Positions 5,320 through 25,084 of a stretch of DNA of 28,072 bases are shown in pieces. Position 1 is the stretch's first letter. Each line of letters starts with the position of its first letter. The translations under genes were made by a program, and so were the position numbers. The stretch is from positions 1 through 28,072 of the IMG/VR virus record IMGVR_UViG_3300044858_003850; one strand, 5' to 3'. This DNA comes from a virus. The notes below the pieces were generated by a model. It was not told the DNA's origin and searched no databases. It saw nothing but the letters and a program-made list of their open reading frames with translations.

Positions 5320-5387
5320 TGTACCTCCTAGGCCAGTTAGTTTTTGGACGTCAAACGCCCGTGATTACAGTCAAGGTTGAGGGACTC

Positions 5388-5428
5388 CGCGCTCATGGCG
5401 CGAGGCGCTCCACCTACGGATAATTTTA
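5388..5428 (-). promoter_or_regulatory. Capsid-gene leader: possible -10 box and GC hairpin
   Basis: The 118-nt gap before the capsid gene contains, in minus-strand order, GGTAAAATTA (TAAAAT at 5428-5423, matching the actinobacterial TAnnnT -10 pattern) and then a 5-bp GC stem, cgcgc/gcgcg at 5388-5392 and 5398-5402. No convincing -35 box is seen. The capsid needs high expression, so a local promoter is plausible, but the hairpin could equally end or process the long upstream message. Confidence 0.3.
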
Positions 5429-5437
5429 CCGTATTTT

Positions 5438-8400
5438 TTAGGTAAGTAGTCGAAGTAGCTTACTCATCTCGGACTGAACCTCTCCCTGAGAAAAGACATC
5501 AGCACCTGACATGTAAGACTTTAGCTTTTGGGTAGCTATATCTGCGTCTTCCTTACCAATCTTTGATTCTACCCTGTCAATCATGCCCTCTATTAGGTCT
5601 TTAAGACCTACAGGCAGATCGCTATATCTAACTTTTTGGGCTTCTTTACCAAAAGGTAGAGGTAGATTTGCAATAGTTTTTCCTAGCTCAGCTGCGGTGA
5701 GACGGACATTCTCTAGAGCTTCCGGGTTAAGCGCTTGAGCGTCGAGTCGATCAATCATTCCTAAAAGCTCGGAGCTTGCGGCTGCAGAGGCAGCATAGTC
5801 TCCTGCAAAGTCTAGGTTTTCAGCCTCTTCTACTCTTTTTAGAGCTCGAGAAAGGCCAGCAACACCTAGGTCTTGCTTTAGCCGAGCTAGAACCTTTCGG
5901 TATTTGCCTTTTGCATCTCTAGGTTGATTTACGCCTGAAACATACTTAATGCGACCATCTTCATCGCGAGTAGGTGCAGACTTAGCTTTTTTTACTTCTT
6001 CGGCGGCTTTGATCTCTTCCTCAGTTTGCTTATCGGCTTCTTCTTTGACTTCTTTAAGCTTCTTAAGCTCTGCCTCTGAGATCTCATCGGCTTTTGGGCC
6101 GGCAGCCACCACCACCTCTCGAACATAGGCAGCAGCAGTTGTAGAAGTCCACTCTTCTGGGATTAGATCTTCTCTACCTAGAGCCTTTGCTCTCTTAACG
6201 ATATGCTTCTTAGCAAGCTCGATGTCTTTTGCGCGACCGTGAGCCTTGATTGCACGCTTTAGATCTTCCTCATTTTCGATTGGAAATGATCCATCTGGAA
6301 GTGCAAAACCTTTTTCAGCATACTTCTCGCGAGTCTCTTCCGAGTAATCTCTAAACTCGCCAGTTGCGGCTGCAGTAATTGCTGCACGCATAGCAGCTAC
6401 CTTCTCTGCAGCTTCCATTGAGTCAGCGTGTAGCCAGTGGCTAGGAATTAAATCGGCTTGGCGTAGCTTGCGAGCACGCTTGATGATGTGCTTGCGAACA
6501 GCCTTGCGCTCAGAAGCTTTCGAACGACCATAAGCCTGAATTGCATTCTTTAGGTCGTCGACGTTGCGAATTGGATATGAACCGTCTGGCATTGCTTTGC
6601 CTTCTTCAGCAAGAGTCATGCGCTCTTCCTCGGAAATCTTGGCAAGCTCTGCAACAGCAGCTGCAGTTAGGGCTTTTTCACGCATTTCAGCAGCACTAGC
6701 GGTAATAGCCTCTAGGTTTGCCTCACGCATTTTCTTTTTTGCTTCCCTGACACGACTCTTTAGGTTAGGCGCTGTTGCAGAAAGCTGACCTAGCATGTCT
6801 GCTTTTGCAACTAGTGACCCGACTGCTCTGCTCTTCATAATTGCAAGCTCGGAGGCACCAGCGGCAACAAGAGCCATAATCTTACCGGATGCAACCATTG
6901 CCCGAGCAATTGGGAATCCCGGAACATTTACCTGGCAAACTGCAACGAGCTCCAAAGAGCCGTTGATTGGACGCCAGTCTCCAGAAGGGGCAGAAGCACG
7001 AAGTGCACGAACCTGCATCTCATCTACGTCTGGACGGAGGGATCCAGCGCACCAAATGCCGTACTCGTCTTCTCCCATGTGAACGTCTGCTACTGCAGAG
7101 GCGGTGTCGTCATAGTGCTTAGCAGCTGCGGCAGCATCTACGTTTAGTGGGGCGTGTCCGCCAGCAAGGGTTAGCTGACCTACAGGAATGTCCATTCCCT
7201 CGGCAGTGTGAATTACGCCTGTGTGGAAGTAAGCGTACTTGCTTCTTGAGCGTGGTGGCTTAGTCGAGCGTGGTAGACCGATGTGGCTGACGTGCCATGC
7301 TGCAATGTGGCCGTAGATACGACCATCTTTGTCCACGGTTAGTGGAGTTGGCTTTGTCAACTTCGGGTTTTCAAACCATGAAGCTGGAGGAGTAACTGGA
7401 ATTTCTGATTCCAGATATCCTGAAGCAATGATTGGCTCGACGTCAGCAAAGGTCTCTAGAGACTCTTCGTAAACGCCGTCTTCTGGGGTCACAATATCCT
7501 CCTGATCCCCTGATTCTTCAATGAGAATAGAGCATTCTTGGAATGCGGGCTTAGCTACAATTGTAGCAGCCATGATTCGGGCCTTATTGATAGTTAGTTT
7601 GTCTTTGCCGTATTCTTGACCATCATCAGCAGTTTCTTTTGATGGCTTCTTGTCTTCTTTTGCCTCGAACTGGTCAAGGTCAACAGAAACTCCACGCAGG
7701 AATCCGTGACGGACTAGACGCTCTGCTTCACGTCCGTATGGACCGCTGTCAAATACTCCGTAAGCATTCCCCATTCCGCCATCTACACGCTCGATGTAGT
7801 CAATTCTACCAACCACAACTGATCCATCGTGTCCCTGGCCAGTCTTAATCTGCCAAAGTAGTGGAACTGGTAGCTCCCTCATCGAGATAGCGCCTTTGTC
7901 AAACTTGCGACCGTCTCCCGACTCTACTTCTTCCGGGATAAGCATTGGAATAAAGAATCTCGCTCCATGAGCAGGCTTAGGGGCAGCTGCTACTAGACCA
8001 ATTTTTTCTCTGGCATCGGCCGCTCTAGCTGCTAGCTCTGCACGCTGAATAATAGCTGCATCAAATTCTTGCTCACTTGCAAAAAGGCTGGCTGAAGCCT
8101 GACGACCGCGCTTTTTCCCAACGTTGAACTTGCTTCCGGTATATACACCAGTAACTTCTTTGTGACGAAGTTGGCAATATCCCTTAGCGCGTGGCCCCAT
8201 GTACTTAGAAAGCTGACGGACACAACGAGTCCAGTCGCCAGGGGTACCCCAACGAATCTTGAGGGCACCTTTGCCACGAGTCCAGTAGCGTCGAAGTGCT
8301 TCGGCGTTTCCACGGTTGCGATCGAGACCTCCAGCTGATAAAAGTGGCTCTACAACTGTTTCCCAGAAAATCTGGAAGTTGTAAGCCGAAGAGTTAATTC

Positions 8401-10174
8401 CCCGATCTGCTTGACTTAAAACATCGTTTAGAACTTCTTTGTCACTAAGCTCCACTACTGGTGGTGGAGTGGCTGATTTAAGGTCCAGAAGAATCTGATC
8501 ATTTTTTACCCACTTGCCATCTTTTCTTTCGTAAAGGACAGGGGTGGTGGTTTCCTTCGTTTCTGGAACAATTGCAACAATATCCATAACAGCGCTTTTG
8601 TCGTCCGGAGAGACAATGGCTAGGTACTTGGCTGAAATGTCTGAAGATTCTGGCGTCTGTGTGCCTTCTTTTTGTGGTTCGGCTGAAGACTGAATTGGCT
8701 TAAATCTTTTTCTTTGATTCACAACCCAAGCGTCCCAGTTTCTTAATAAAGATGACAGCTCTTGCTTAGTCATTGGAGGAAGGGTTCCTGGCAGCTGAGC
8801 TTTTGGCATATTGGAAGGTGTTCTAGGCTCAGCTAAAATTCCAGAAACATCAAGCGGCTCTTGACTCAGAGGGGCCATTAGTCTTTTAGTCGGCTCGGCT
8901 TTTCTTTCTTCAGTTTGATTGGCTGGTACTGTTACAGTTTCTCCGTTAGCATCTAAAAGAACATCAACGGTGCCGTCTTTGCTATTAATAGCAGTTATTT
9001 CGCCTTTACCGCGGCTATAGTCTCCAGAAATAACAACTTTAGTGCCAACTTTAGCAAATCTTCCAGAAGCATCCCTTGGTTGACCCTTAGCCAAAGCCGC
9101 TCTCTCTTCTGGAGTGTAGTTTCCATCTTGATTTGTAGGGTCGGTAGTGCCTGCTGCAGTCAATACTCTGTCAATCATGGCAAAGTCTTCTTCTGCAAGG
9201 CCCTCGGCCATAAGTGCAGTCTCTTCTGGATCAATCTCTTCTAGAAGAACTGGTTGGAATGGACGCTCTTGGAAGAAAGCAGAAATAATAACCGCTGAAG
9301 ATGGGTCAATTAGAACGTGCTCGACTTCTACGTTGTCTTCCGGGTCATCCAGGGCTTGATCGTAGTAATAAACGTCGCCATCAACGTGCCCCAGGTCGTC
9401 CCAGCCGAAGTCGTCCCAGATAGAAACCGTTCCATCAATGTCGATTTTATATAAGCGGTCAATTCCAGAACCGTCCATGCGAACACGAGCCATAAACTCT
9501 GGACCAACATTAGCGTCCAGCTCATGTGCAACCTTGAACGGGTTTACATCAGAGTCATAGTTTCCAAAACCGTAAGTATCTAGGTGGTCTTCGTACCCTG
9601 GAAGCATGTAGCCACCAGCAGTGCGTGCTTTTCGGTTTTCTCTTTCAACAATTGCGCGAGCCCATCTCCATGCGGCGTCGCCACCCCAAAGGGCCCAGGC
9701 GATGCGACCATTCGATGGAAACTTGTCTTCGCCTGGAGCCCAGCCTTTACCCTTCTTGTCTACTTCGTGACGAGGGAAATATTTAGCAATGTGTCTAACT
9801 TTGCGAATTCCTATTTGACCACCGCGAGCAAGAGTGCGAGCGGTGTTAAGGCCTACTGGAGTTCCACCACGCTTGTACTTCTTTCTCCACTCGAGTGCCT
9901 TCTTAGCTTCTTCAACAACTCCCTCTGGAATTGTGTACATTCTGTCCCCGGAAGCGGCGATTGGAGAGATTTCTGTAAGCGCGGCGTCTGCAAGCTCGAC
10001 TACTGAATTAGAAAAAGCCTGCTTAGCTGGCTTGTCTGGCAGTGCAGCTAGTCTCTGTGCAATTTCTACTTGTGAAAAGTCAGCAACAAGATTAGTGTCA
10101 AAATATACTGCAGCGTATTTTCCTTTTTTCTCAAAAAAGGCTAAAGAGTCGTCAGCGCCAACGAATTTAAGCAA
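5438..10174 (-). CDS. Capsid maturation protease embedded in a 1578-aa polyprotein
   Basis: 1578 aa, TTG start at 10174 preceded by AGAGGA, 4 nt after the upstream stop. Domains in order: 90-185, a phage module with EWRKKYKRGGTPVG and PSNGRIAWALWGGD; 365-373, motif QPRDASGRF followed by a small beta-barrel-like stretch to 420; 590-675, a module with RYWTRGKGALKIRWGTPGDW and conserved Cys/His; 738-900, the protease, with candidate His782 (GQGHDGSVVVGR) and Ser830 (FLRGVSVDLD) like the His and Ser of prohead proteases; 930-1105, a module beginning WFENPKLTKPTPLTV; 1182-1247 and 1280-1342, two copies of a DUF6582-like unit (LPDGS-PI, HI-KRA, LIP--W); 1417-1425, a second QPRD motif; then a helical tail. 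It should cleave capsid and scaffold parts during head assembly. Prohead proteases are usually a few hundred residues, so the size is striking. Confidence 0.8.
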   Translation of the reverse strand: MLKFVGADDSLAFFEKKGKYAAVYFDTNLVADFSQVEIAQRLAALPDKPAKQAFSNSVVELADAALTEISPIAASGDRMYTIPEGVVEEAKKALEWRKKYKRGGTPVGLNTARTLARGGQIGIRKVRHIAKYFPRHEVDKKGKGWAPGEDKFPSNGRIAWALWGGDAAWRWARAIVERENRKARTAGGYMLPGYEDHLDTYGFGNYDSDVNPFKVAHELDANVGPEFMARVRMDGSGIDRLYKIDIDGTVSIWDDFGWDDLGHVDGDVYYYDQALDDPEDNVEVEHVLIDPSSAVIISAFFQERPFQPVLLEEIDPEETALMAEGLAEEDFAMIDRVLTAAGTTDPTNQDGNYTPEERAALAKGQPRDASGRFAKVGTKVVISGDYSRGKGEITAINSKDGTVDVLLDANGETVTVPANQTEERKAEPTKRLMAPLSQEPLDVSGILAEPRTPSNMPKAQLPGTLPPMTKQELSSLLRNWDAWVVNQRKRFKPIQSSAEPQKEGTQTPESSDISAKYLAIVSPDDKSAVMDIVAIVPETKETTTPVLYERKDGKWVKNDQILLDLKSATPPPVVELSDKEVLNDVLSQADRGINSSAYNFQIFWETVVEPLLSAGGLDRNRGNAEALRRYWTRGKGALKIRWGTPGDWTRCVRQLSKYMGPRAKGYCQLRHKEVTGVYTGSKFNVGKKRGRQASASLFASEQEFDAAIIQRAELAARAADAREKIGLVAAAPKPAHGARFFIPMLIPEEVESGDGRKFDKGAISMRELPVPLLWQIKTGQGHDGSVVVGRIDYIERVDGGMGNAYGVFDSGPYGREAERLVRHGFLRGVSVDLDQFEAKEDKKPSKETADDGQEYGKDKLTINKARIMAATIVAKPAFQECSILIEESGDQEDIVTPEDGVYEESLETFADVEPIIASGYLESEIPVTPPASWFENPKLTKPTPLTVDKDGRIYGHIAAWHVSHIGLPRSTKPPRSRSKYAYFHTGVIHTAEGMDIPVGQLTLAGGHAPLNVDAAAAAKHYDDTASAVADVHMGEDEYGIWCAGSLRPDVDEMQVRALRASAPSGDWRPINGSLELVAVCQVNVPGFPIARAMVASGKIMALVAAGASELAIMKSRAVGSLVAKADMLGQLSATAPNLKSRVREAKKKMREANLEAITASAAEMREKALTAAAVAELAKISEEERMTLAEEGKAMPDGSYPIRNVDDLKNAIQAYGRSKASERKAVRKHIIKRARKLRQADLIPSHWLHADSMEAAEKVAAMRAAITAAATGEFRDYSEETREKYAEKGFALPDGSFPIENEEDLKRAIKAHGRAKDIELAKKHIVKRAKALGREDLIPEEWTSTTAAAYVREVVVAAGPKADEISEAELKKLKEVKEEADKQTEEEIKAAEEVKKAKSAPTRDEDGRIKYVSGVNQPRDAKGKYRKVLARLKQDLGVAGLSRALKRVEEAENLDFAGDYAASAAASSELLGMIDRLDAQALNPEALENVRLTAAELGKTIANLPLPFGKEAQKVRYSDLPVGLKDLIEGMIDRVESKIGKEDADIATQKLKSYMSGADVFSQGEVQSEMSKLLRLLT

Positions 10175-11117: not shown

Positions 11118-13115
11118 CTATCCTTGAAATCCTGGTGGAACCATCATATCAACCATACTTCTGTCCAAAATAACCAAATAGCTCTCGCCGGAGTTCATCA
11201 CAATTTCTACACCCTGGTATCCTAACATACCAGCCAAAATAGAATGATTCTCACCGCGCTCGTTTAGGCCCATTTTTAACTTTAACAGCTTAACTTGACT
11301 GTCTAACTCCGAGCCCTCTAGGTTGGGGTCAATCTCATTCAAAACAATTTCTTTTAGTAATGTTTTTCTTAGTTCATCGTAGAACTTGTTTATGTCAGTG
11401 TCATTATTATTTTTTACAGAGTAAATGTTTCCATCTTTTGACCAGCTGCTTTCTAGGGATACATAAACGTTTGCATCTGGTTTTGCACGCATTTTTGCAG
11501 TTGTTCCGTACCCACGAGCTGTGCTTTGATTGTTTGATGAATACTGACCGTCTCCGTAAATTCCATAACCATACCACGGCATGTCAGCAGTCCTAAACTG
11601 GTTATGCATAAGCCAAGCCTCGGATTCGCTATTAGCTGAAACTCCTCGGTAAATAGTGTATTTATCGTTTGGAATGCTGTCAACAGTGTCTGGCTTTTTA
11701 TCTGTAAAACCAAAAATTCTTGCTAGTTTGTGGACCCTAGCGGCTCCGTATTTGGCTTTTTTATTATATTCAGAGCTTTCTGGCCCATTAAATTCAGGAG
11801 TGATTACATTTTGATCATCAGCAAGTATGCCATCAACAAATTTAAAGAAATTATTTTTGTATTGTGGGTAGTTGTCTCTCCATTTTTTGTTCAGTTGGGC
11901 CTTCGTTAATCCTTTAGAAGACAGCAGCTCTAAAAATTCCGGAGAAGCGTCCCCAGTAATCAAGTATTTGGCATACTGCTCGGCGAAGCTTTCGGAAACG
12001 CTTTCGTCACCATACAAGCTGGTCCCAGCCTGAGAGACATTAAACTTCTTAAAGTCATCTTCTAGGCTCTTTCTTCCAGAAGACTTTCCGTCTCCCCAGA
12101 GCTTATACATCTGAAGGTGTCCGCTTTCGTGGACAATTAGATGCTTGTAGGCAAGGTCCTTTGTGTCTATATCAGTCGAGAAGAAATCGGAAGGTCTGTC
12201 CGGCCTATTTAGCATGGTCTCTATCTTCTCGGGGAATAGGTAGATTCCATTACCACCTAGGAATGTAAAGGCAACCTCATCTCCGCCAAGCTCTGATGTC
12301 ACTGCTTTTGGAGCAGCGTTTGAAGCTTCGGAAAGAACATTTACTGAAATCTTGTCCTTGTTAAATCTGAATGCTCTTGCTGCAGCAATACCTGCTTTAA
12401 TTTGAGCTGCGTCAACCTCATTCACAATAGGAGTTAGAACTCCGTCAGTGCGCTTTCCGTCCATGTACAGATTAATTTCGGCATTGTCCGTGTTGGATGA
12501 AATTCTAATGAAGGACTTGGTTGGGTCGCTGCTTCTTTCGCGGAGGATTGAAGCAACTTTTCTGCTAGCTCTATAGGTAGCCTCTTTATCGTGCGCTCCC
12601 TGAACCAGGAACTCATCCTTAAGCTCTTTGAAAAGTCTGTCGCTTAAAGCAACAGCTCCTTCAATGTCCCAATCGGAGTCAAGAGCTCTGAGAATTGCAT
12701 CAATTCTTGGCATCTTGGTTCTGTATTCGGTAGCGGCATCTGCTCTAAGTTCATTTGCCGTTTTAGGGGTAGAACCGGTTCGTTTTTTATTGTGGAAAAA
12801 TCCTCTGACAAGTGCTAAACCTCTAGTGTCTAGGAATCTGTCATTTTTTACTAGCATGTCTAGCGTTGTCGGATCGTACTCCTCGGATGCATTCAGACTG
12901 TCATAGTCAATTTGTAATAAATCTCTAAGGGCTTTTGCGTATGCTCCCTGGTCCCCGCTTCCGCGGGCATCTCTAACAGCAGAAATTTTTGCTTCGAACT
13001 CGTCTAGGTCAGCGTTGGCAGAAATTTTGTTGAAAAGCTGTGTTTCAATCGCTTTTAGATCATCCCAGCTAGGATCTATTGGAGTAGTACGAGGGCGACC
13101 AGGACCGCGCTTCAA
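11118..13115 (-). CDS. Metallopeptidase plus ADP-ribosyltransferase-like protein; probable -1 frameshift extension of the 930-aa protein
   Basis: 665 aa if started at TTG 13115, but that start has only a weak ribosome site, and the same frame stays open upstream to 13239 with no ATG, GTG or TTG. The 37 codons upstream look coding (SNKGPDSAPKPRVAK, LEGKNFDLSKLRD), so this is more likely translated by frameshift from 13223-16015. The N-terminus has an AT-hook-like RGPGRPR. HESGH at 329-333 is a zinc-peptidase HExxH motif, with the likely third ligand at Glu375 or Glu379 (SESFAEQYAKYL). Residues 487-653 resemble an ADP-ribosyltransferase: YRG at 489-491, GYGIYGDGQYSS at 516-527, and a terminal strand GESYLVILDRS (Glu644). 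It may be a virion-carried enzyme acting on host or head proteins. The ART call is less sure than the peptidase motif. Confidence 0.75.
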   Translation of the reverse strand: MKRGPGRPRTTPIDPSWDDLKAIETQLFNKISANADLDEFEAKISAVRDARGSGDQGAYAKALRDLLQIDYDSLNASEEYDPTTLDMLVKNDRFLDTRGLALVRGFFHNKKRTGSTPKTANELRADAATEYRTKMPRIDAILRALDSDWDIEGAVALSDRLFKELKDEFLVQGAHDKEATYRASRKVASILRERSSDPTKSFIRISSNTDNAEINLYMDGKRTDGVLTPIVNEVDAAQIKAGIAAARAFRFNKDKISVNVLSEASNAAPKAVTSELGGDEVAFTFLGGNGIYLFPEKIETMLNRPDRPSDFFSTDIDTKDLAYKHLIVHESGHLQMYKLWGDGKSSGRKSLEDDFKKFNVSQAGTSLYGDESVSESFAEQYAKYLITGDASPEFLELLSSKGLTKAQLNKKWRDNYPQYKNNFFKFVDGILADDQNVITPEFNGPESSEYNKKAKYGAARVHKLARIFGFTDKKPDTVDSIPNDKYTIYRGVSANSESEAWLMHNQFRTADMPWYGYGIYGDGQYSSNNQSTARGYGTTAKMRAKPDANVYVSLESSWSKDGNIYSVKNNNDTDINKFYDELRKTLLKEIVLNEIDPNLEGSELDSQVKLLKLKMGLNERGENHSILAGMLGYQGVEIVMNSGESYLVILDRSMVDMMVPPGFQG

Positions 13116-13189
13116 GTCTCTTAGCTTTGAAAGATCGAAGTTCTTACCTTCAAGGCTCTTTGCAACTCTAGGCTTAGGGGCTGAATCCG

Positions 13190-13232
13190 GTCCCTTGTTT
13201 GAAGGGCCAGAGACAGCCCTATCTATTTTGGG
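13190..13232 (-). promoter_or_regulatory. Probable -1 programmed ribosomal frameshift site with pseudoknot
   Basis: On the minus strand the end of the 930-aa gene reads GTC CCA AAA TAG. The heptamer C CCA AAA (13232-13226) fits X XXY YYZ and lies directly before the stop. Slipping back one base gives CCC AAA ATA GAT AGG, exactly the frame of 11118-13115. After a 5-nt spacer comes a stem AGGGC/GCCCU (13220-13216 and 13207-13203); loop bases GUCUC (13214-13210) can pair with GGGAC (13194-13190), leaving an 8-nt third loop, an H-type pseudoknot. A fusion of 1632 aa would result (930 + 37 + 665). Confidence 0.65.
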
Positions 13233-16015
13233 ACGCGGCTACTCTCTATCGGTACCAGCTCTAGCTGCTCGTCTCCTTGGTCATCCAACCAAACAACAGC
13301 CCAGGCTTCGGTTCCATCTTCTGGGTCTGTAACAATTTGAGCCTCTACGAAGGTTCCAAGTCTGTCACCATCTTCGTCTGGCCAAACATCTCCGGCCTCG
13401 AAGTCCTGAATATTTCCTAGAGCTGTCTCCTCGGCCTGTTCTTGACCCGATACCCCTTGGCTTCCTAGGTATGGGGCGGCTGCGTCTTGATCTGCAGTGC
13501 TTCCTACTTGGTCATCTTCTAGGTCTTGGTTTTCATCGTCCTGCCTTGCTTCGTCTCCGAAGTCGAAGGAGAATCCACGCAAGTCACGAAGCTCTTGTCC
13601 TTGTACGTTTCTCTTGTAATCCGTAGGTTCTGAATCTTTGTCATGAAGATTTAGATCGTTGTCTAGATCATCTCCAAGGACATCCATTCTGTTTGAGCGA
13701 AGAAGTCCAATCTGGTTGTCTCCGAATCTAACAAAAACGGCGTCATCATATCCGTCTACATCTGCACTTCTAACATCTATAACATTTCCAATAGACCACT
13801 CGCCAACATTGTTCCAGTAACGTACTTTGTCTCCCTTTTTAACGATGGTTTTACCATCTTTGGAGGCAAACGGCCTTCTAAGTATGTCCCTAAGGTCAAA
13901 GCTCTCCGTTAGAATTTTTCTTTCTATGTTATTTGCAAGCGGGGCAACTTTTTGACCTAGAGGAGTTCCATTGAACTTAGACTTGATTCCAGCTCTAAGG
14001 GTATTGATAAGAAGGTTTCTAGACTCTTCAGTGTCTGGTAGACGCCCAAGAAGCTGAACCATTCGGGCTTCAAAAATCGGTAAGTCGTCTTGTTCTATTG
14101 CTTCCCAGGCGGAGCCAACGAAGCTTTGCAACTTAGTACCACGTGCCTGTCCGGACTTGTTATATTTCTCTGCGCGACCTTCTAGATACTTTTTCACTAC
14201 TTCGTCTGGAGTAAGTAGCTTAAACGAAGTCTTATTTAAGTCTTCTAAAGCTACTTCAGTGCCTTCGGCTCTCTGGCCACGGTAATATCTAATTCTATCC
14301 GCGAGAGTCTTGTTATCTGCCCAGTAGGCTTTATAAACTCGATTGTCTTCGCCATTTTTTCTCTTCGGAGCTTCTGGACTGGTTCTACCTAAAATGTGGT
14401 CTCTGAAAACGTAAACGCCGTTCTTATCCCCATAAATGGATGCAAAAGAGTCTTTGTAATCAAAGTGATAGAAAGTCTGGGTGTCACCATTTGAATCGGT
14501 AAATCGGTAACGTTCCATGTACTGGTTACCGTGAGTTTTAGCTACAGCAACTTCGTACTTATAGACACTTCCGTCTTTATCGGTAAAGTCTCCACGCTCT
14601 AGAACAATGTGATCGGTCTTATCAACTCTAGCTTGCGGATTGTTTTCTAGTAAAGCGTTGTAGATAGCATTTGGGTCTTCAATCTTTTTTCCGCGCTTAC
14701 CAAATACAAGGCGTCCAGTATCAGGATCTATCAGCTGATCAATCTTAACGTTTTGCATCTGCTCGAGAGGTGAAATATTGGCCGGAATGTCTTTTCCATC
14801 ATCTTCTCTGCCTTTAGGAATTTTTATAGCTTCTTTTGGCTTTGACGGAGAGGGTTTTGATTTAGTTCCTGGTCTAGGAGCTGTTGCTGGCTTCTTCGCA
14901 GTGGAGTCTGTGCTGTCTACGGTAGGTGTAGGTGTAGGTGTAGGTGTAGGTGCTTTGGAAGTTGGCGCTGCGGTTGGAGCCGGCGCTGCTGGAATGTCAG
15001 AGCTTTTCTTTTTAGTTTTTGAAACGTAGAGACCTTCGTTTCTATCAATAGCTTCGACCGTAACAGAGCCGTCTTTCTTTTGTATCGGGTAAGAAAAGCC
15101 TGGCCTACCTCGAGAGTCTCTAACTTGTTTAGCAGAATCTAGAACAGTTCCAATTTCATTGCCTCTAGAGTCAAAAAGAACATCTCCGCGCTTAAACTCG
15201 TCACCAAATTTAAGAGTAGTGTTAGCTGGAGCTTTTTGTGTTTTAACCGGAGGCGGGGTTGGTACACCGTCATCTTCTCCATCTGTTGGAGAAGAAGATT
15301 TAGGAGCCCTAGCTGCATCGATTAAGGAGTCGAGGTCTACGTCTGTATCTCCGCCATAGGCAACGTCTGCTAAAACATCTTTAACTGCCGAATCCGCGGG
15401 GTCCTCCATGGATTTGTCAAACTCGTCTGGGTCGATTCCAGATTCTCTTAGTAGGTTTTTTGCCTCTTCTCTGTCTAGAGATTCAAAACCACCGGGAAGC
15501 TCTGCAATAGGAGAATTCTTTCTACCTTCCTCTTCAGCTGCTCGCTCTTCTGGAGTAAGTTCTCCTCTAATCAGACGCTCGTCGTTAGGAGTGATGTCAG
15601 TTCTAGTCTTCTCGATATCTTCAATTGTTGGAATGTCTTGGTCAGTAAGAGTTCTTTTGTTTCCAAAAATGTCTGTTGACTCTAGAGGGATTCCTTTTTC
15701 TTCCAAGAAGCTTTCTGGCAGCTGAGCTTTTACAGTGGAATCAAGTAGGTGGGAGTCAATTTCGTAGACTCCATCAAACATTCCCTTTTTGTTTCTAACT
15801 ACAACTCTTGCCTTACCTGGAACACCAGTCGGCCCTGCGTAGTTACCGGTCAGTCCGACTCGGCGATTGCCCTTTCCACGAAGGATAGCTAGAACGGTGG
15901 CACCCATCTCAATCCAACGACCAGCTCGGTCACGGGGCTGAATTCTCCAGAAACCCTTGTTTGCACCATCGTTGAGACCGATTGCAGCGGTGATTACCGT
16001 TTGCTGATTATCCAT
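13223..16015 (-). CDS. Multidomain head-associated protein, upstream partner of the frameshift
   Basis: 930 aa, ATG start with ACAGAGGA upstream. Residues 14-100 (NDGANKGFWRIQPRDRAGRW, EMGATVLAI, KGMFDGVYEID) closely match the N-terminus of the 881-aa protein at 22343-24988, so the two are paralogous there. Later come a second small beta-barrel-like stretch (270-332), a Pro/Thr/Lys-rich linker (about 340-400, with a PT repeat), an unrecognised globular region (415-715), another SH3-like stretch (725-780) and an acidic linker leading to a last beta domain (870-927). No catalytic motif is visible; the enzymes lie in the -1 frame downstream. The short form would thus be an enzyme-free version and the long form would carry peptidase and ART-like domains. 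It lies between portal-side genes and the maturation polyprotein, which favours a head or ejected-protein role. Confidence 0.75.
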   Translation of the reverse strand: MDNQQTVITAAIGLNDGANKGFWRIQPRDRAGRWIEMGATVLAILRGKGNRRVGLTGNYAGPTGVPGKARVVVRNKKGMFDGVYEIDSHLLDSTVKAQLPESFLEEKGIPLESTDIFGNKRTLTDQDIPTIEDIEKTRTDITPNDERLIRGELTPEERAAEEEGRKNSPIAELPGGFESLDREEAKNLLRESGIDPDEFDKSMEDPADSAVKDVLADVAYGGDTDVDLDSLIDAARAPKSSSPTDGEDDGVPTPPPVKTQKAPANTTLKFGDEFKRGDVLFDSRGNEIGTVLDSAKQVRDSRGRPGFSYPIQKKDGSVTVEAIDRNEGLYVSKTKKKSSDIPAAPAPTAAPTSKAPTPTPTPTPTVDSTDSTAKKPATAPRPGTKSKPSPSKPKEAIKIPKGREDDGKDIPANISPLEQMQNVKIDQLIDPDTGRLVFGKRGKKIEDPNAIYNALLENNPQARVDKTDHIVLERGDFTDKDGSVYKYEVAVAKTHGNQYMERYRFTDSNGDTQTFYHFDYKDSFASIYGDKNGVYVFRDHILGRTSPEAPKRKNGEDNRVYKAYWADNKTLADRIRYYRGQRAEGTEVALEDLNKTSFKLLTPDEVVKKYLEGRAEKYNKSGQARGTKLQSFVGSAWEAIEQDDLPIFEARMVQLLGRLPDTEESRNLLINTLRAGIKSKFNGTPLGQKVAPLANNIERKILTESFDLRDILRRPFASKDGKTIVKKGDKVRYWNNVGEWSIGNVIDVRSADVDGYDDAVFVRFGDNQIGLLRSNRMDVLGDDLDNDLNLHDKDSEPTDYKRNVQGQELRDLRGFSFDFGDEARQDDENQDLEDDQVGSTADQDAAAPYLGSQGVSGQEQAEETALGNIQDFEAGDVWPDEDGDRLGTFVEAQIVTDPEDGTEAWAVVWLDDQGDEQLELVPIESSRVPK
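14922..14951 (-). repeat. Five tandem copies of a 6-bp repeat
   Basis: gtaggt occurs five times in tandem within the 930-aa gene and encodes an alternating Pro-Thr run (about residues 357-365) in the linker. The 6-bp unit keeps the reading frame, so copy-number change would alter linker length without inactivating the protein. Confidence 0.7.
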
Positions 16016-16078: not shown

Positions 16079-16576
16079 TTAGGCAGTGAGAGCTTTCTCT
16101 AGCAGAAACATAGTCTGCTCGGAAAGCTGTCCTCGCTTAGCCATCAGAATCAATCTGGTGTTGGCGTGAAGTAGGGTGACTTCATCTACATCTGGAGACA
16201 GAGAAGCAATAATTGCATCTTTTGCACTGTCTGAAACTTCAGGTGCTCCGCCTAGCCACTCGGCGAGGCTTTCTTTGTCCTGGCTCTCGGAGTATGGGTG
16301 TCCCGAAGAAAGAAGTGGAAGATAGCGGGGGCTAAACTCCAGATCGTCTACAACATTAAAGGCAGTTGTAGCGTATTCCGCGAAGCTTTGAACGTCGTAG
16401 CGAATGGCATCGGCTCTTTCGTCATCTTCCAGATATGAGTAGTAGTTGCAGGCCTGCTGAGCGACCTCAACGGCGGTAGAAGCAGTCACATGCCTAGACT
16501 CTCCTACCTGGGCGTTGTAGTAGCTAATGGTGTCTGCTAGTTCGTCTGGAGATATGAATTGGTCCCAAGTATTCAC
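16079..16576 (-). CDS. Hypothetical protein
   Basis: 165 aa, GTG start sharing one base with the upstream stop (TAGTG), so it is translationally coupled to the Cys4/ParB-like gene. It is mainly helical and acidic (ISYYNAQVGES, NYYSYLEDDERADAIRYDV, LHANTRLILMAKRG, TMFLLEKALTA), with no membrane segment, Cys cluster or catalytic motif. The family is not recognised. It is the last gene before a 63-nt gap, so it may end a portal-Dps-head subgroup. Confidence 0.65.
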   Translation of the reverse strand: MNTWDQFISPDELADTISYYNAQVGESRHVTASTAVEVAQQACNYYSYLEDDERADAIRYDVQSFAEYATTAFNVVDDLEFSPRYLPLLSSGHPYSESQDKESLAEWLGGAPEVSDSAKDAIIASLSPDVDEVTLLHANTRLILMAKRGQLSEQTMFLLEKALTA

Positions 16577-18042
16577 TACTCGTCCTCTTTCTTAGGAAGT
16601 AAATCTGCGTCAGGGCTATCATACAAGTTCATGGCTAGCTCTGAAGCTCTTTCAAATGGGTCTACTCCCAGCTCTAGGGCTCTATTCCAAGACGCTCTAA
16701 TGCTAGGGATGATTTCATAGCTCAGGTCTGAATATTCGGCTAGAGAGAAGATGGCGTGCTCGTCAGAAACGTATTCTTCCCTAGGCAAAATTCTTACAGT
16801 AGACGCTTCCTTTATGGCTGAGTCAATCATGTAGCCAGCGGCGGTTAGGGATGACGCGTTTCTCTTGCTTGACTTAGGGTGGCTTGCTGGAAGCAGGTCA
16901 TTGTCTGTGGTGTACTTAGAATTCTTCGGGCGCCCAGTGCGCAGTAGGTGTAGATAAGCATTAACTCTCGCCATTGCCCACGAGTTTCTGTTCTGGTCTG
17001 GACGGTGGGAAGTAGAGAACGCTCCGGCTCCGCGGCGGTAGACGGCCTTGAGGGTGCGGACTGAAGTCTTCTTGGAAGCAGTGTCACCATACTTTTTGTT
17101 GTGGTTGTCGGCCTTCTCTTGGAGAGCTGATTCAACTTTCTTAGAGAAGGTGATTTTCTTTCCGCCAGCAGCAGAGCCCTTAGGGTTCTTCTTAGAGCCT
17201 TTAATTCTTTCGCTTGGCTCCGCAGGCTTAGAGCCAGCGGTAGCAACAATAGGTCCCTGATACACTTTAGCTTTTATTCCTTTGTGGCCTTGGCTAATTC
17301 TGGTTGCGCATCTGTGGTGACCATCAACCAGTTTCATTCCTTCGTCATCTTTGTAGACAATGATTGGCTGCTCAAAAGCCTGAGCATCTTTAAAGTTTGA
17401 CATGTCTACAAATTCTTGAGTTGGAGTTAGGTCAGAGATTTCTACATACTCTTCCTTGTAGTTGCTCTCCATCTCCTTGATTTTCTTCTTAAGCTCTTCT
17501 TGAATCAGCCTTGGAGACTTCAAGAAATAATCTTCGACTGGTTTGTCTTTTGGATTTACAGTTCCGTCTGGTAGAACAGCAAAACGGCAAAGCCCGCCCT
17601 CTTCTGTTTCTGCAATGATCACCTTGCAGCCATTTGGAGCTTCCCAGAAAACACAATTGCCACACTTAACACCAATAGCTGCATTCTCAGCGTTCTCGGC
17701 TGCGGTAGTGTAGCCAGCCCAAACGCCAGTGTTGTCAGCGTTGAATTTTCCGTGCTTGTCTACAATCTCAAGTAGAGCAGTAGCTAGGTCTCGCTCTTCT
17801 GGAACTAGGTAGCCGGCAGCTTCCAGCGACTTTTTAACGGAGTGAGCATCGTCTCGCATTAGAGTTCCGTCTGGCATGTAGTGGTAACCCGGAGGGGCTG
17901 GTGGCAGCTCCTCTTTCTCTTCCTCTTCTACTGCCAGGTGTGGATTTACTTTAGGCTCTTCAATTTTGTCCATATCAAGTACTTCTGCCGGAGCTCCAGC
18001 CCCGCCAGAAGATCTAATAATAGAGCCTAAGTATTCAGACAT
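16576..18042 (-). CDS. Multidomain head protein with Cys4 cluster, ParB-like domain and phage SHRP module
   Basis: 488 aa, ATG overlapping the Dps stop by one base (TAATG). Residues 100-165 have four cysteines (127, 130, 139, 152; CGNC, GCKV, LCRF) in a compact domain that could bind iron-sulfur or zinc. Residues about 200-262 resemble a ParB/sulfiredoxin-type fold: DLTPTQ at the start and LVDGHHRCATR at 238-248. Residues 300-390 form a conserved phage module with KAVYRRGAGAFSTSHRP and MARVNAYLHLLRTGRPKN, ending LLPASHP. The C-terminus is helical. The ParB-like part could bind DNA or hydrolyse nucleotide or DNA, but the active site cannot be checked by eye. The combination near portal and maturation genes suggests a minor head or ejected protein. 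Confidence 0.7.
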   Translation of the reverse strand: MSEYLGSIIRSSGGAGAPAEVLDMDKIEEPKVNPHLAVEEEEKEELPPAPPGYHYMPDGTLMRDDAHSVKKSLEAAGYLVPEERDLATALLEIVDKHGKFNADNTGVWAGYTTAAENAENAAIGVKCGNCVFWEAPNGCKVIIAETEEGGLCRFAVLPDGTVNPKDKPVEDYFLKSPRLIQEELKKKIKEMESNYKEEYVEISDLTPTQEFVDMSNFKDAQAFEQPIIVYKDDEGMKLVDGHHRCATRISQGHKGIKAKVYQGPIVATAGSKPAEPSERIKGSKKNPKGSAAGGKKITFSKKVESALQEKADNHNKKYGDTASKKTSVRTLKAVYRRGAGAFSTSHRPDQNRNSWAMARVNAYLHLLRTGRPKNSKYTTDNDLLPASHPKSSKRNASSLTAAGYMIDSAIKEASTVRILPREEYVSDEHAIFSLAEYSDLSYEIIPSIRASWNRALELGVDPFERASELAMNLYDSPDADLLPKKEDE

Positions 18043-18497
18043 TAGCGGATACCGAGAAATGCCTTAATCTGCCAGTTCCACTTCTTGTGGGTGTCAATGC
18101 GACCAGCTAGGAAGTCCATAAGACCCTGCTCGTTGCACTTCTCTGCCTCAGAAAATGCATCGTAGTGGCAGTCAATGAGAGCCTGGTTGACATTTAGAAC
18201 CGAGTTTAGAAGCTCTGGAACATTTGCTCCGTCGTAGCGTGGCTCCTTAATAGTTGACATCTCAACGAAGTCAGTTAGCAAATATGGAGCTGCGTATCCA
18301 ACCTTGAGAATGTTTTCTGCTAGTGGGTCGATTACCCCGTCAACATCCTCGTATAGCTTTCCGAAGAAGTCGTGCATTTCCGCGAAGTCGCCACCAAGAA
18401 CATTCCAGTGATATCCCTGGTAGACGAATTTGGCAGTTACTACATCAGAAAGTAGTTTTGCTAGCTTGGCGGCTAGCTCTGGGTTTGGGCTGTGCAT
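18042..18497 (-). CDS. Dps-type ferritin-like protein
   Basis: 151 aa, ATG one base after the portal stop, with AGAGG as ribosome site. The family signature YHWNVLGGDFAEMHDFFGKL is present. Aligned without gaps to E. coli Dps (offset 21) and Listeria Dps (offset 1), the ferroxidase residues are kept: His30, His42, Asp57, Glu61; the Asp of the usual D67 position is Gly46. Dps proteins form 12-subunit shells that oxidise and store iron with peroxide and can protect DNA. The length is typical. The N-terminus is short and lacks a long Lys-rich tail, so DNA binding is doubtful. Its place directly after portal is unusual for a stress protein and suggests late expression or packaging into the virion; host-like detoxification during infection is the alternative. 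Confidence 0.85.
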   Translation of the reverse strand: MHSPNPELAAKLAKLLSDVVTAKFVYQGYHWNVLGGDFAEMHDFFGKLYEDVDGVIDPLAENILKVGYAAPYLLTDFVEMSTIKEPRYDGANVPELLNSVLNVNQALIDCHYDAFSEAEKCNEQGLMDFLAGRIDTHKKWNWQIKAFLGIR

Positions 18498-18498
18498 G

Positions 18499-20244
18499 TT
18501 ATACCTCTGGTTCGGCTAGTGGTGGAGCTGGTGTTGGTCCTGTCTCTCCCTCGGGTGGAGAGGCTGGCGCTCCAGTTGCTTCTTGCAAAATTTGATCTAT
18601 CTCTGGCGAAATTGGAGCACCGCTCTCTTGCATACTCTGCTCTCGAACCTGCCCCATAACCTCTGGTGCAACAGCCTGAAGCATGGCCTCGGTGAGCTCT
18701 GGAGTTACCATACCCTTTTGCAGAATTAAGCGAAGTGCAAATTCTTTTGGATCTGGAGCGTCTGCATCAGAGAATCCGTGAGCACGTCTCCAAGCGTTGT
18801 AAGAAACGGCCATCTTGTCGAATCCAGAGTCAGCATCGGCAGCTCGGTCATTGCGAGTTGCAACAAGGCTTGGGTCGTACCAAATGCAAAGCTTCTTGAC
18901 TTCCTCTTCTGGGTAGCCATTGGCAACTAGGTATGGACGCAAGTACATAACAGTAAGCGCGTCAACTATAAGTAGCATCAGAGGCTCGATGTGTGCCTTG
19001 TAGAGGGCTTCATCTATTTGCATAGCGTTTGAGTACTTAACGTTTGCAAGACCAGTTACAACGTCCTTAGGAACGTCTAGACCCTGCATGATGCGCTCTA
19101 GTACACGATCTGCACGCTGGGCAAGCGCTGGGTCGAATGAACGCTCGAACTTAAACTGCTTAATCTTGTCGCCAAGTTCTGCAGGGCCGCGAATGATTAG
19201 CGGAACAACTGCTGATGCTGAATCTTCGTCCTTGATCGGCGTGGTCATCGCATCGATTAGTTGGTCCTCGAACTCGTCAGCCGCTTCCTCTGGGTTGTAC
19301 TGCTCGTTGTAATTACCCTCTTCATCGTATGGATAGTCGGGATCGGGAGCCGCGGCAACGGAAAGACCGTCTGGAAGATAAAGAGCACCTGCGTTGAGGC
19401 GAGAACGAGCAGTCGCACGGAATGTTCTGTTTAGTAGTAGAAGTTCGGCGCAGAGGTCGAGTAGACCGCGTAGCGAGCTGTCTGCTTCCTGGCTGTAGCG
19501 TGGGTGTGCTCTCCAAATACGACCAACGTAAGCTGTGTTTGGTAGACGAACTACATCCTTATTTCCAGTAGAAAGGCTAGAAGCAATAGAAGTTCCACCA
19601 GAAATATCGCGTCGAGGATTAACGATGTAGTTACCCTTGGCATCTACCTGTAATTCGTCAACAGAACGGATGTCCCACGACTCTGGAAGCCCAGAACCTA
19701 CACGCTCTGGAATCTGAACCAGATAGCACTCGCCAGTAACCTGCAAGTTAAGTGCGGCATCCTTTAGAAGACCTGGCTGACCGCCGTAAGCCGAGCTAAG
19801 CCGGTCAAGTGCACGCTGTGCAGCTGCAGCAAGACGCGGGTCAATAGCTTCTACCGAGCCAATGGGAGCCGGAGCCTCTGCAGGATTAGACACTGCGGCT
19901 GCGTAGAGGCGAATACGAGATACAACAGACGCCACTAAGTTAAAAGCGTACTTAACTTCACCGATTGCGTCGTAGTATTCCCACGCTTCGGTCTGCCAAG
20001 CAGTAGAAGCGGCCTGTCGACGAGCTTTGAAGTATTCCGCTTCACTTCTGTCGTCGAGTTTAACCTGAGCTGCGGCTGCAGTTAGTGGACGTGGAGCATT
20101 AAATGCTTGAGGCTCGGCATAAACGATGCCAAAAGAGTCAATTGAAACTCCTGGAGCCACACGAGTAGCGTTTTTAGGAACAGAGCTTCGAACTGTCGTA
20201 GTTTTTTGCTCTGTTTTTGGAGTTTCTCGCTTAAAAATACCCAA
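18499..20244 (-). CDS. Portal protein
   Basis: 581 aa with TTG start at 20244, chosen because AGGGAG lies 6 nt upstream and the preceding gene stops at 20262; a longer frame to 20397 would run back through the DUF1360 gene and reads as non-coding. The core has actinophage portal features: WEYYDAIGEVKYAFNLVASV (an early helix pair), ECYLVQIPER, YVGRIWRAHPRYSQEADSS, LLNRTFRATARSRLNAGALYLP, then a long helix and PEEVKKLCIWYDPS-type wing. Pro-rich C-terminus. The portal forms the 12-subunit vertex ring through which terminase packs DNA. It sits downstream of terminase, as is normal, with a small membrane gene and one unknown between. Confidence 0.85.
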   Translation of the reverse strand: MGIFKRETPKTEQKTTTVRSSVPKNATRVAPGVSIDSFGIVYAEPQAFNAPRPLTAAAAQVKLDDRSEAEYFKARRQAASTAWQTEAWEYYDAIGEVKYAFNLVASVVSRIRLYAAAVSNPAEAPAPIGSVEAIDPRLAAAAQRALDRLSSAYGGQPGLLKDAALNLQVTGECYLVQIPERVGSGLPESWDIRSVDELQVDAKGNYIVNPRRDISGGTSIASSLSTGNKDVVRLPNTAYVGRIWRAHPRYSQEADSSLRGLLDLCAELLLLNRTFRATARSRLNAGALYLPDGLSVAAAPDPDYPYDEEGNYNEQYNPEEAADEFEDQLIDAMTTPIKDEDSASAVVPLIIRGPAELGDKIKQFKFERSFDPALAQRADRVLERIMQGLDVPKDVVTGLANVKYSNAMQIDEALYKAHIEPLMLLIVDALTVMYLRPYLVANGYPEEEVKKLCIWYDPSLVATRNDRAADADSGFDKMAVSYNAWRRAHGFSDADAPDPKEFALRLILQKGMVTPELTEAMLQAVAPEVMGQVREQSMQESGAPISPEIDQILQEATGAPASPPEGETGPTPAPPLAEPEV

Positions 20245-20261
20245 GGCGGGCTCCCTGTCTC

Positions 20262-20552
20262 TTACCGCTCGATCCAGGCGGACAAAAGCCCGACCACAGC
20301 GGAAATGGCCATGATTAATGATACCACAAAGGTAAATTGAGGTAGGATTGATGCTCCAGCGACGAGTGCAAATGACACCCAGAAGCCAGTGCACCAATTA
20401 CAAGTGATTAGATATCCAATTTTTGTCATTGGAGACCATTTTTTCCAGACCCAATTTCTAAAACCATCCAAAATTGCATCTGTTGTGATTAGGTGAGTGA
20501 TTCGGTATGCAGCTAGTGCAAGAATTACAAAATTTACTGTCGTTATATCCAC
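20262..20552 (-). CDS. DUF1360-type membrane protein
   Basis: 96 aa, ATG start at 20552 just 1 base after the upstream stop. The N-terminus has FVILALAAYRITHLITTDAI, the middle GYLITCNWCTGFWVS (Cys51, Cys54) and the C-terminus hydrophobic segments (FTFVVSLIMAISAVVGLLSA), giving about three membrane helices. This matches the DUF1360 family found in many phages and Gram-positive bacteria near structural or packaging genes. The function is not established; a holin-like or envelope-modifying role cannot be excluded. Confidence 0.8.
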   Translation of the reverse strand: MDITTVNFVILALAAYRITHLITTDAILDGFRNWVWKKWSPMTKIGYLITCNWCTGFWVSFALVAGASILPQFTFVVSLIMAISAVVGLLSAWIER

Positions 20553-20553
20553 T

Positions 20554-20916
20554 TTAGTCCTTAATCGAGTTCAGGGTTTGGTACGGATTCCATCCACGAA
20601 GCCTAGACCCGCAGCCGCAACCAGTATCCTTCTTGAATGCTAGCATTTTTCCCGTCTTGGTGACAACCCTAGAATCATTTTTAGGGTCTTCAGACGGAAT
20701 GAACGTCTCATATGCCTCTCGAAATACGATTTGCGGCCCCTCCGGGGAGTCTTTGGCGACCAGGATATGCTCATCTGTCAGTATCACTCTTGTAACTTCT
20801 AAGTATCTGGACCCTGGAGTAGGCTCGTAGCTTCGCAGCTGCGAAACGTCTTCGAGTTCTCCCGCGGCGATTGCCGCTAGGTGACAGGGAAACCTGTCCA
20901 TAATGATTCTGGTCAC
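20554..20916 (-). CDS. Hypothetical protein with CGCGSRLRGW motif
   Basis: 120 aa, GTG start sharing one base with the terminase stop (TAGTG); an ATG five codons later is an alternative. The end of the protein has GCGCGSRLRGWNPYQ, a Cys-rich, basic-aromatic motif, and the rest is a mix of beta strands (EVTRVILTDEHILVAK, PQIVFREAYETFIPSED). I do not know the family, but similar short proteins are common next to terminase in actinophages, to my recollection. The position between terminase and portal suggests a packaging or head-vertex partner. Confidence 0.65.
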   Translation of the reverse strand: MTRIIMDRFPCHLAAIAAGELEDVSQLRSYEPTPGSRYLEVTRVILTDEHILVAKDSPEGPQIVFREAYETFIPSEDPKNDSRVVTKTGKMLAFKKDTGCGCGSRLRGWNPYQTLNSIKD

Positions 20917-22337
20917 TATCTTACCCTAAAAATTCTGCCTGCAGGTCGGCTGTTCGGACTAGTAACTCCTAGCTTACGGTCTGCAAAGCTTTTTGCTCGG
21001 ATTTTACCTCCGCTAAATCCTGGAGGCGGCTTAATAAGGAGAGCTGTAAGGGCATGGACTAGTGCGTCTACTCGGTCAGGTGATTTTCCTTCGCCAGGAA
21101 TCCACGAATACATCTGAGACTCTAAGTCCTGCAAGTAGCCAACATGGTGAACGCGCTGCTGTTCGTAGGCTAGAACTGTAGGCTCCGCTCTTAGGGCTTT
21201 TCCATGCTTTGAGTGAACCTCAAGAACTTTAATAGTTGGGTCGATTGAGTTGATTGCGTTGCGTACAAGTGCGCCACCTTGATTAACTTCGGCAACGACG
21301 GGACAACCCCACTTACGAGCCATCTCCACAACTTTACGGGCCCAGGTGTCTGGGGAACCATGAATTGTAGCGTCTTCAAGAACCCAAGCATTGCGCTTAA
21401 AGAGGTCTGGTTCTGCAGTCGCAGCGCAGACAACAATGCCACATTCGTCGCGGGGATTCTCAGCAACAGAAGGGTCCACGCCGATAATACGTAGCGGAGT
21501 AATAGGAGGGTAAGCCACGTGTCTAGCCGCTTCAACCATTTCTTCATTCCAAAGTGCTCCTTCAATGTCGTCGAGCATCTCTCCATAAAGTTCCTGACGT
21601 GCAAGCGTCGTGCCTTCGTAGACGCCCATAATCGTGTCTAGGTAAGCCTGCGAAAGGTTTCCAGCATTGTCCAAGGTTGAACCCTTGGTAACAACAACCC
21701 TTGCCCCGTTTGGATTGTCAGTACGGGACTCTTCAATAAGTTTGTAAAGCAGCGGGACTCTCTTAGGAGTGGTGGTACAGATGATCTGTGGATTGCGACC
21801 AAGACGAGTGCCAACTCGCAAGTTGTCGAATGCGGTCATACCGGCGGCGTCTGGAGTCTGACGCCAAGCTGCAATCTCATCGCCCCAGGCGTGAGTGAAC
21901 TGAGGACCACGTAGAGAGTCAGGCTCGTCAGCTGTGAAGAGCGTGGCCGTGTTTCCGTTAGGCCAAGTAAGGCGACGCTTAGAAGGCTCGTAGTGCGGCT
22001 TCTCGGAGGGGGGAGAAACGGCAATGATTCCAGACTCACCTTCAACGATAACGTCACGAACGTCAGCCGCGGTACGGGCAACAAGAGCAAAGCGACGCTG
22101 CCCATCTTTTGTAACTTTGGCCTGCTCGCGTACCCACTCGGATGCAAGGCGGGTTTTACCGAAACCACGACCAGCCAGAACTAGCCAGACGTTCCAGTCG
22201 CCATCAGGGGCTTTTTGCTCTGGACGCGCCCAGACGGACCAGTCCCAGACGAGAGACTCTGGGTCCATCCCGTCAAGAATTGCTAGACGCTCCTCCTCTG
22301 GAAGGAGGGCGAGCTGCTCCATAATGCTTTTGCCCAT
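20916..22337 (-). CDS. terL: Terminase large subunit
   Basis: 473 aa, ATG start with AAAGGA upstream. ATPase half: Walker A GRGFGKT (56-62), Walker B-like THAWGDEIAAW with Asp153/Glu154, and coupling motif CTTTPKR (187-193). Nuclease half of RNase H type: Asp288 (IIGVDPS), Glu350 (VVAEVNQGG) and Asp421/Asp424 (SPDRVDALVHAL), as in Terminase_6 family proteins. The enzyme drives DNA into the prohead through the portal and cuts the concatemer. No small subunit is obvious next to it; the two-HTH protein at 26205-26771 is a possible one. Length is normal. Confidence 0.93.
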   Translation of the reverse strand: MGKSIMEQLALLPEEERLAILDGMDPESLVWDWSVWARPEQKAPDGDWNVWLVLAGRGFGKTRLASEWVREQAKVTKDGQRRFALVARTAADVRDVIVEGESGIIAVSPPSEKPHYEPSKRRLTWPNGNTATLFTADEPDSLRGPQFTHAWGDEIAAWRQTPDAAGMTAFDNLRVGTRLGRNPQIICTTTPKRVPLLYKLIEESRTDNPNGARVVVTKGSTLDNAGNLSQAYLDTIMGVYEGTTLARQELYGEMLDDIEGALWNEEMVEAARHVAYPPITPLRIIGVDPSVAENPRDECGIVVCAATAEPDLFKRNAWVLEDATIHGSPDTWARKVVEMARKWGCPVVAEVNQGGALVRNAINSIDPTIKVLEVHSKHGKALRAEPTVLAYEQQRVHHVGYLQDLESQMYSWIPGEGKSPDRVDALVHALTALLIKPPPGFSGGKIRAKSFADRKLGVTSPNSRPAGRIFRVR

Positions 22338-24988: not shown

Positions 24989-25012
24989 TTATCTATTGTA
25001 CCTTGGCGATTG

Positions 25013-25084
<72 letters not shown>

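Follow-up and report, generated by a model that had tools for sequence, protein, structure and literature searches.

The window analysed here is a 28,072-nucleotide stretch of a 28-kb virus record (IMG/VR record IMGVR_UViG_3300044858_003850), and all the genes discussed lie on its minus strand. They run in the order terminase, portal, ferritin-like protein, DUF5824 protein, a 165-amino-acid protein, gene A, gene B, two small open reading frames, a 1,578-amino-acid protein and the major head protein; past the major head protein come an unknown protein and then the major tail protein. The best relatives of the portal are found in phages of Actinobacteria. The features are as follows.

22343–24988, minus strand: single-frame protein with the N-terminal module of A and its own HEYGH motif
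20916–22337, minus strand: terminase
18499–20397, minus strand: portal (phrog_776)
18042–18497, minus strand: ferritin-like protein (PF00210, E 1e-15), its gene immediately following that of the portal
16576–18042, minus strand: 488-amino-acid protein with DUF5824 and a short ParB-like match, between the portal and A
13223–16015, minus strand: gene A, 930-amino-acid zero-frame product, terminator TAG at 13225–13223
13226–13232, minus strand: slippery heptamer C CCA AAA (Pro-Lys), identical in 13 of 13 loci
13220–13225, minus strand: 6-nt spacer TAGATA, zero-frame TAG included, from the junction comparison
13214–13219, minus strand: outer helix, 5′ arm GGGCTG, pairing with CAGCCC in 13 of 13 loci
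13186–13211, minus strand: inner helix, TCTGGCCCTT with AAGGG-A-CCGGA and loop CAAAC, from folding and the recoding control
13178–13183, minus strand: outer helix, 3′ arm CAGCCC, from folding and the pairing survey
11118–13226, minus strand: gene B, 702 amino acids from the slip, predicted −1 extension via frameshifting
5438–10174, minus strand: 1,578-amino-acid head protein matching the portal-type family phrog_859 and the head-maturation-protease family phrog_18402
3235–5319, minus strand: major head protein

The portal-type match at 5438–10174 occurs despite the separate portal gene at 18499–20397.

Gene A ends ..GTC CCA AAA TAG, with C CCA AAA TAG in frame at 13232–13223, as the original prediction had read it. 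The −1 frame is open from before this point (stop-to-stop span 11118–13238), and its first ATG, GTG or TTG past the slip is the TTG at 13115, codon 39. A genome annotation will list A and B separately and give B this codon as a false start. These features, which we confirmed in the window, had led to the proposal that a −1 ribosomal frameshift joins a head-region protein to a metallopeptidase/ADP-ribosyltransferase (ART) protein. Comparison of 13 loci strongly supports that proposal, and the junction of A and B is very probably a site of −1 programmed ribosomal frameshifting. Large viruses, apparently of Actinobacteria, thus appear to produce a short and a long form of one head-region protein.

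Twelve further IMG/VR loci keep the heptamer, the position of the stop (TAG or TAA) and the 6-nt spacer at the A/B junction, a conservation that, judged by sequence, far exceeds chance. Their B sequences are 29–85% identical to the B of the window, and the eight A sequences that were aligned are 45–79% identical to its A. A protein search with A, made before any DNA pattern was used, retrieved L002, L003 and L004 (best-segment identity 72, 48 and 44%), all of which have CCCAAAATAGATAGGGCTG at the junction. An exact DNA scan added L007, L008, L009, L010 and L012, and all five were also recovered with the B and A profiles, with no DNA pattern involved; L007 and L008 are near-identical to each other. 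L032 and L033, where the junction reads CCCAAAATAAAT(C/A)GGGCTG with slip and spacer unchanged, came from the A profile as well, and a looser DNA pattern yielded L038 and L040, in which the B frame matches the B profile at E <1e-124. The zero-frame stop is TAA in these last four loci. Four other DNA-pattern matches (L035, L036, L039 and L042) lack long A and B frames and were set aside as chance, and a megablast of the region against phage records gave no match. In six large virus records, the element occurs once per record.

Ten of the 11 A-profile matches reach the junction, and the element is present in all ten, including L032 and L033. The exception is L034, in which A continues in frame into a different C terminus without a slip site: its 1,372-amino-acid A homologue (4974–9089) ends in a region unrelated to B that has its own HELWH motif. 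The split-gene set thus comprises 13 loci, the window included, and one relative is a fused, in-frame alternative to the frameshift. We also sought a relative in which normal intergenic sequence and a strong start separate the two frames, and found none; all relatives that reach the junction keep both the overlap and the slip site.

The downstream frame shows the marks of coding sequence from the slip onward. A is conserved in relatives up to its last residues (..PK), and the extension is conserved from its first −1 codon (PK-I(D/N)RA..). Between the slip and codon 39, the window and L002 differ by 10 synonymous and 1 nonsynonymous codon changes, and synonymous changes likewise outnumber nonsynonymous ones in other pairs of loci; by its evolution, the stretch ahead of the first start in B is coding DNA, and the −1 frame downstream is under purifying selection. 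This long overlapping frame has no start of its own at its head: in the 11 loci checked, the −1 frame contains none ahead of the slip, and the first starts in B fall 22–132 codons past the slip, at positions that do not correspond between lineages. Among the 56 invariant B residues with synonymous codons, only four hold one codon in all 13 loci, namely P1 (CCC), K2 (AAA), I3 (ATA) and A6 (GCT), which together correspond to the slip and the first hairpin arm. The choice of ATA for I3 is in part dictated by the other frame, where a stop follows AAA, and some loci were fetched by DNA patterns that hold these bases; the loci retrieved purely through protein searches show the same codons. Readthrough of the stop was considered and ruled out, as the zero frame closes shortly past it in the window, L032 and L033.

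The heptamer has the X XXY YYZ form in the zero frame in all 13 loci. C CCA AAA is a plausible slip sequence, but the heptamer named as highly shift-prone in Escherichia coli is C_CCA_AAG (PMC5009743). In each locus a hairpin is predicted to begin 6 nt past the heptamer, within the range of 5–9 nt commonly reported for ribosomal shifting (PMC5009743): GGGCTG opens it and CAGCCC closes it after 21–30 intervening nucleotides. In the window, the RNA from 13219 to 13178 folds as a nested hairpin of about −27 kcal/mol. Folding the loci one by one recovers an inner helix in every lineage with differing sequences (CCCTT:AAGGG in the window, CCCA:TGGG in L004, CCGTCG:CGACGG in L033). Because the outer helix is invariant, covariation comes from the inner helix only, and L038 and L040, fetched by a pattern holding the outer arms, are not independent for those arms. 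As a control, we recoded each locus synonymously 2,000 times, keeping the B protein and its codon usage; the natural hairpin was more stable than 97.7–99.95% of the recodings per locus (1–45 beat it). The conserved stimulator, as predicted from these comparisons, is a two-part hairpin in which the helix GGGCTG:CAGCCC encloses an inner helix of changing sequence. An Rfam search returned nothing beyond a chance match, and conservation of an upstream Shine–Dalgarno-like stimulator was not evident on unscored inspection of the sequences of the loci.

The original prediction had instead drawn an H-type pseudoknot from AGGGC:GCCCT and GTCTC:GGGAC with an 8-nt connector. These pairings can be drawn in the window, yet both occur only there and in L002 (2 of 13 loci), with the first stem alone in L003, whereas the nested hairpin, which uses the same bases and extends past the interval first considered, is found in all 13. 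Conservation in relatives thus bears out the heptamer and not the two stems, and a real shift stimulated by the pseudoknot is, in our estimate, a very slim prospect. A frame junction of this kind could also arise during transcription, since RNA polymerase might in principle slip on the run of A at CCCAAAATAG and so join the frames. A four-A run is short for productive transcriptional slippage, and an RNA hairpin at the distance suited to ribosomal shifting, exactly 6 nt away, is kept in all relatives; we consider this origin extremely improbable.

Two further explanations dispense with recoding. B might be made alone, by re-initiation or coupling at or past the TAG of A, with no fusion formed: late TTG, GTG and ATG codons are present in B, and phage operons often contain overlapping stop/start pairs. 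Against this stand the absence of a −1-frame start upstream of the slip and the scatter of the first starts, which have no consistent ribosome-binding site, as well as the conservation of the protein from its first −1 codon; nor would re-initiation need fixed CCC AAA codons or a hairpin. This course is very unlikely. The broken frame might also reflect gene decay or an error in sequencing or assembly, and in a single genome one base lost from a homopolymer would look the same, but the identical junction in thirteen contigs from many samples and the purifying selection on the downstream frame already contradict it and leave it a negligible chance. Ribosomal −1 frameshifting is supported by all the comparative tests available.

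In the product of gene A, an N-terminal module (residues about 10–115) is followed by a Pro/Ala/Lys-rich linker and then by conserved domains; a C-terminal domain closes the protein at the slip. The N-terminal module is shared with the single-frame protein at 22343–24988 (37% identity over 92 amino acids, E 4e-12), whose gene is adjoined by a tRNA-Asn (GTT) gene on the minus strand (25012–25084). That protein had been put forward as a paralogue uniting module, peptidase and ART-like segments in one frame; the shared module and an HExxH motif are borne out, whereas the ART-like part was not confirmed and the peptidase matches B weakly. The module recurs in two proteins of DSL-LC01, one of them a giant, and in a giant protein of Pumpernickel, and all its carriers are encoded in the head-gene region. 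A virion-targeting function is a reasonable reading of this common module. The place of A between the portal and the major head protein, together with the module, suggests that A is a head protein of the virion. Neither A nor B matches a MuF domain in Pfam or PHROG or qualifies as a MuF-like minor capsid protein.

B comprises a helical region (about residues 54–300), a zincin pattern (HESGH at 366–370 with E412) and an ART-like region (about 500–702); across the loci, the extension is 700–1,000 residues long. H366, E367, H370 and E412, the HExxH motif and a downstream Glu ligand, are invariant in the 13 B sequences, and on this pattern B is predicted to hold a zincin metallopeptidase; the family match is weak (TIGR04549, best E 0.0023). 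The ART-like domain has invariant R527, G558xG560xY562 and E674, and a Pfam PARP match in 2 of the 13 B members (best E 1.3e-4). AlphaFold2 (AF2) modelling of whole B with nine sequences gave a mean pLDDT of 66.9 and no significant PDB match, so the C-terminal domain was refolded alone. The model of the C-terminal 266 residues has a mean pLDDT of 88.6 and matches ART-PolyVal-like phage proteins in BFVD with probability 1.0; the best viral fold matches also include a MuF-like fusion of a Microbacterium phage. Fold matches in the PDB were non-significant (best E 0.14), with tankyrases and MbcT in the list. With an ART fold and conserved catalytic-type residues, the C terminus of B is thus predicted, from a confident model, to be an ART-PolyVal-like domain.

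In L032, L033, L038 and L040, the peptidase region of B contains an extra domain of about 270 amino acids. The inserts of L033 and L040, the two tested, match a stretch of a 3,289-amino-acid giant of phage DSL-LC01 as well as Gordonia, Pseudomonas and other phage proteins, some of them annotated ART; searches against Pfam and PHROG gave no confident family for the insert. In the genome of Gordonia phage Mareelih, the portal gene is immediately followed by the matched gene, and a further gene close by is annotated ART. This kind of shuffling is in keeping with the polyvalent effectors described by Iyer et al. (PMC5512222), large proteins with several unrelated effector-type domains encoded beside the portal or terminase, an organization that A–B shares. 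The zincin, the ART-like domain and an inserted domain found in distant relatives together make A–B resemble a phage polyvalent effector. Neither a tblastn search of phages with B nor a search of bacterial and archaeal genomes with the B profile gave a match, and no full B homologue was found in named phage records, so that no cultured member is at hand.

We propose that translation of the junction proceeds as follows. CCA and AAA would occupy the P and A sites as the ribosome meets the stable two-part hairpin 6 nt ahead; some ribosomes would re-pair on CCC AAA and continue into B, and others would terminate at the TAG. The products would be A (930 amino acids) and an A–B fusion of about 1,630 amino acids, presumably the minority. 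A would reside in the virion head and bring a low number of A–B copies into the particle; the two predicted enzyme domains of B, zincin and ART-like, would be injected effectors, and the zincin might process the fusion. A carrier and effector role for A–B is an evenly balanced proposition. The fuller scheme, in which a double-stranded DNA phage follows the logic of Gag–Pol, with A as virion carrier, the frameshift setting a fixed low ratio of A–B to A, and A–B packaged and injected so that the zincin frees the ART-like domain in the host, is more tentative and somewhat doubtful.

Among tailed phages, most known examples of programmed frameshifting concern tail chaperones or the extension of coat proteins. 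The cassette described here, whose slip site and hairpin persist although the proteins have diverged widely, would append a large module with several enzymes to a protein encoded near the portal. Were it to function as proposed, translation would control how much of an injected effector the phage delivers. The 13 loci provide natural variants for reporter work.

Frameshifting of a head gene had been expected to be unusual. That holds only in part: neither −1 frameshifting nor its occurrence in phage coat genes is new, and what we did not find in the open-access literature, where a precedent may have escaped us, is a −1 frameshift that appends a zincin/ART module, or any enzyme payload, to a portal-proximal protein. 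As in lambda gpG/gpGT, a −1 slip near the end of the upstream gene would let a tailed phage make a longer product in smaller amounts. Unlike gpG/gpGT, which are tail chaperones absent from mature virions (PMC5009743), A and B are large (930 and 702 amino acids), B has enzyme-like domains, and the pair lies between the portal and major head protein rather than being small open reading frames between the major tail protein and tape measure. Coat genes are frameshifted by −1 in T3/T7, Lactobacillus A2 and Listeria A118/A500 and by +1 in PSA (PMC5009743), and there too a structural gene yields a short and a long product; those extensions are Ig-like or short (PMC5009743), whereas B is an enzyme-like module of 702 to about 1,000 amino acids. 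The retroviral Gag part carries Pol into the particle (PMC5009743), and the proposed A–B similarly joins an enzyme module to a particle-delivering protein by frameshifting; it differs in belonging to a double-stranded DNA phage, in having zincin and ART-like domains and no polymerase, and in that packaging through A is an inferred step, and we claim no homology.

The nearest leads concern MuF and VIP2. PRFect lists MuF-like and VIP2 ART genes among its unconfirmed, unannotated frameshift predictions (PMC10885494), and Microbacterium phages have single-gene MuF–VIP2 fusions (PMC7302621). Like A/B, the PRFect cases suggest frameshifting between a head gene and an ART gene in actinophages; unlike A/B, they come with no conservation analysis, and A and B have no MuF match. 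Polyvalent proteins, including MuF/ART fusions (PMC5512222), share with A–B the zincin and ART-type domains, the place beside portal or terminase and the domain shuffling, and their zincins have been proposed to process them (Iyer et al. 2017, PMC5512222), a paper in which the word 'frameshift' does not occur. A–B would differ from these proteins in that its enzyme part is reached by frameshifting only, so that one gene would supply both the carrier alone and the carrier joined to its enzymes.
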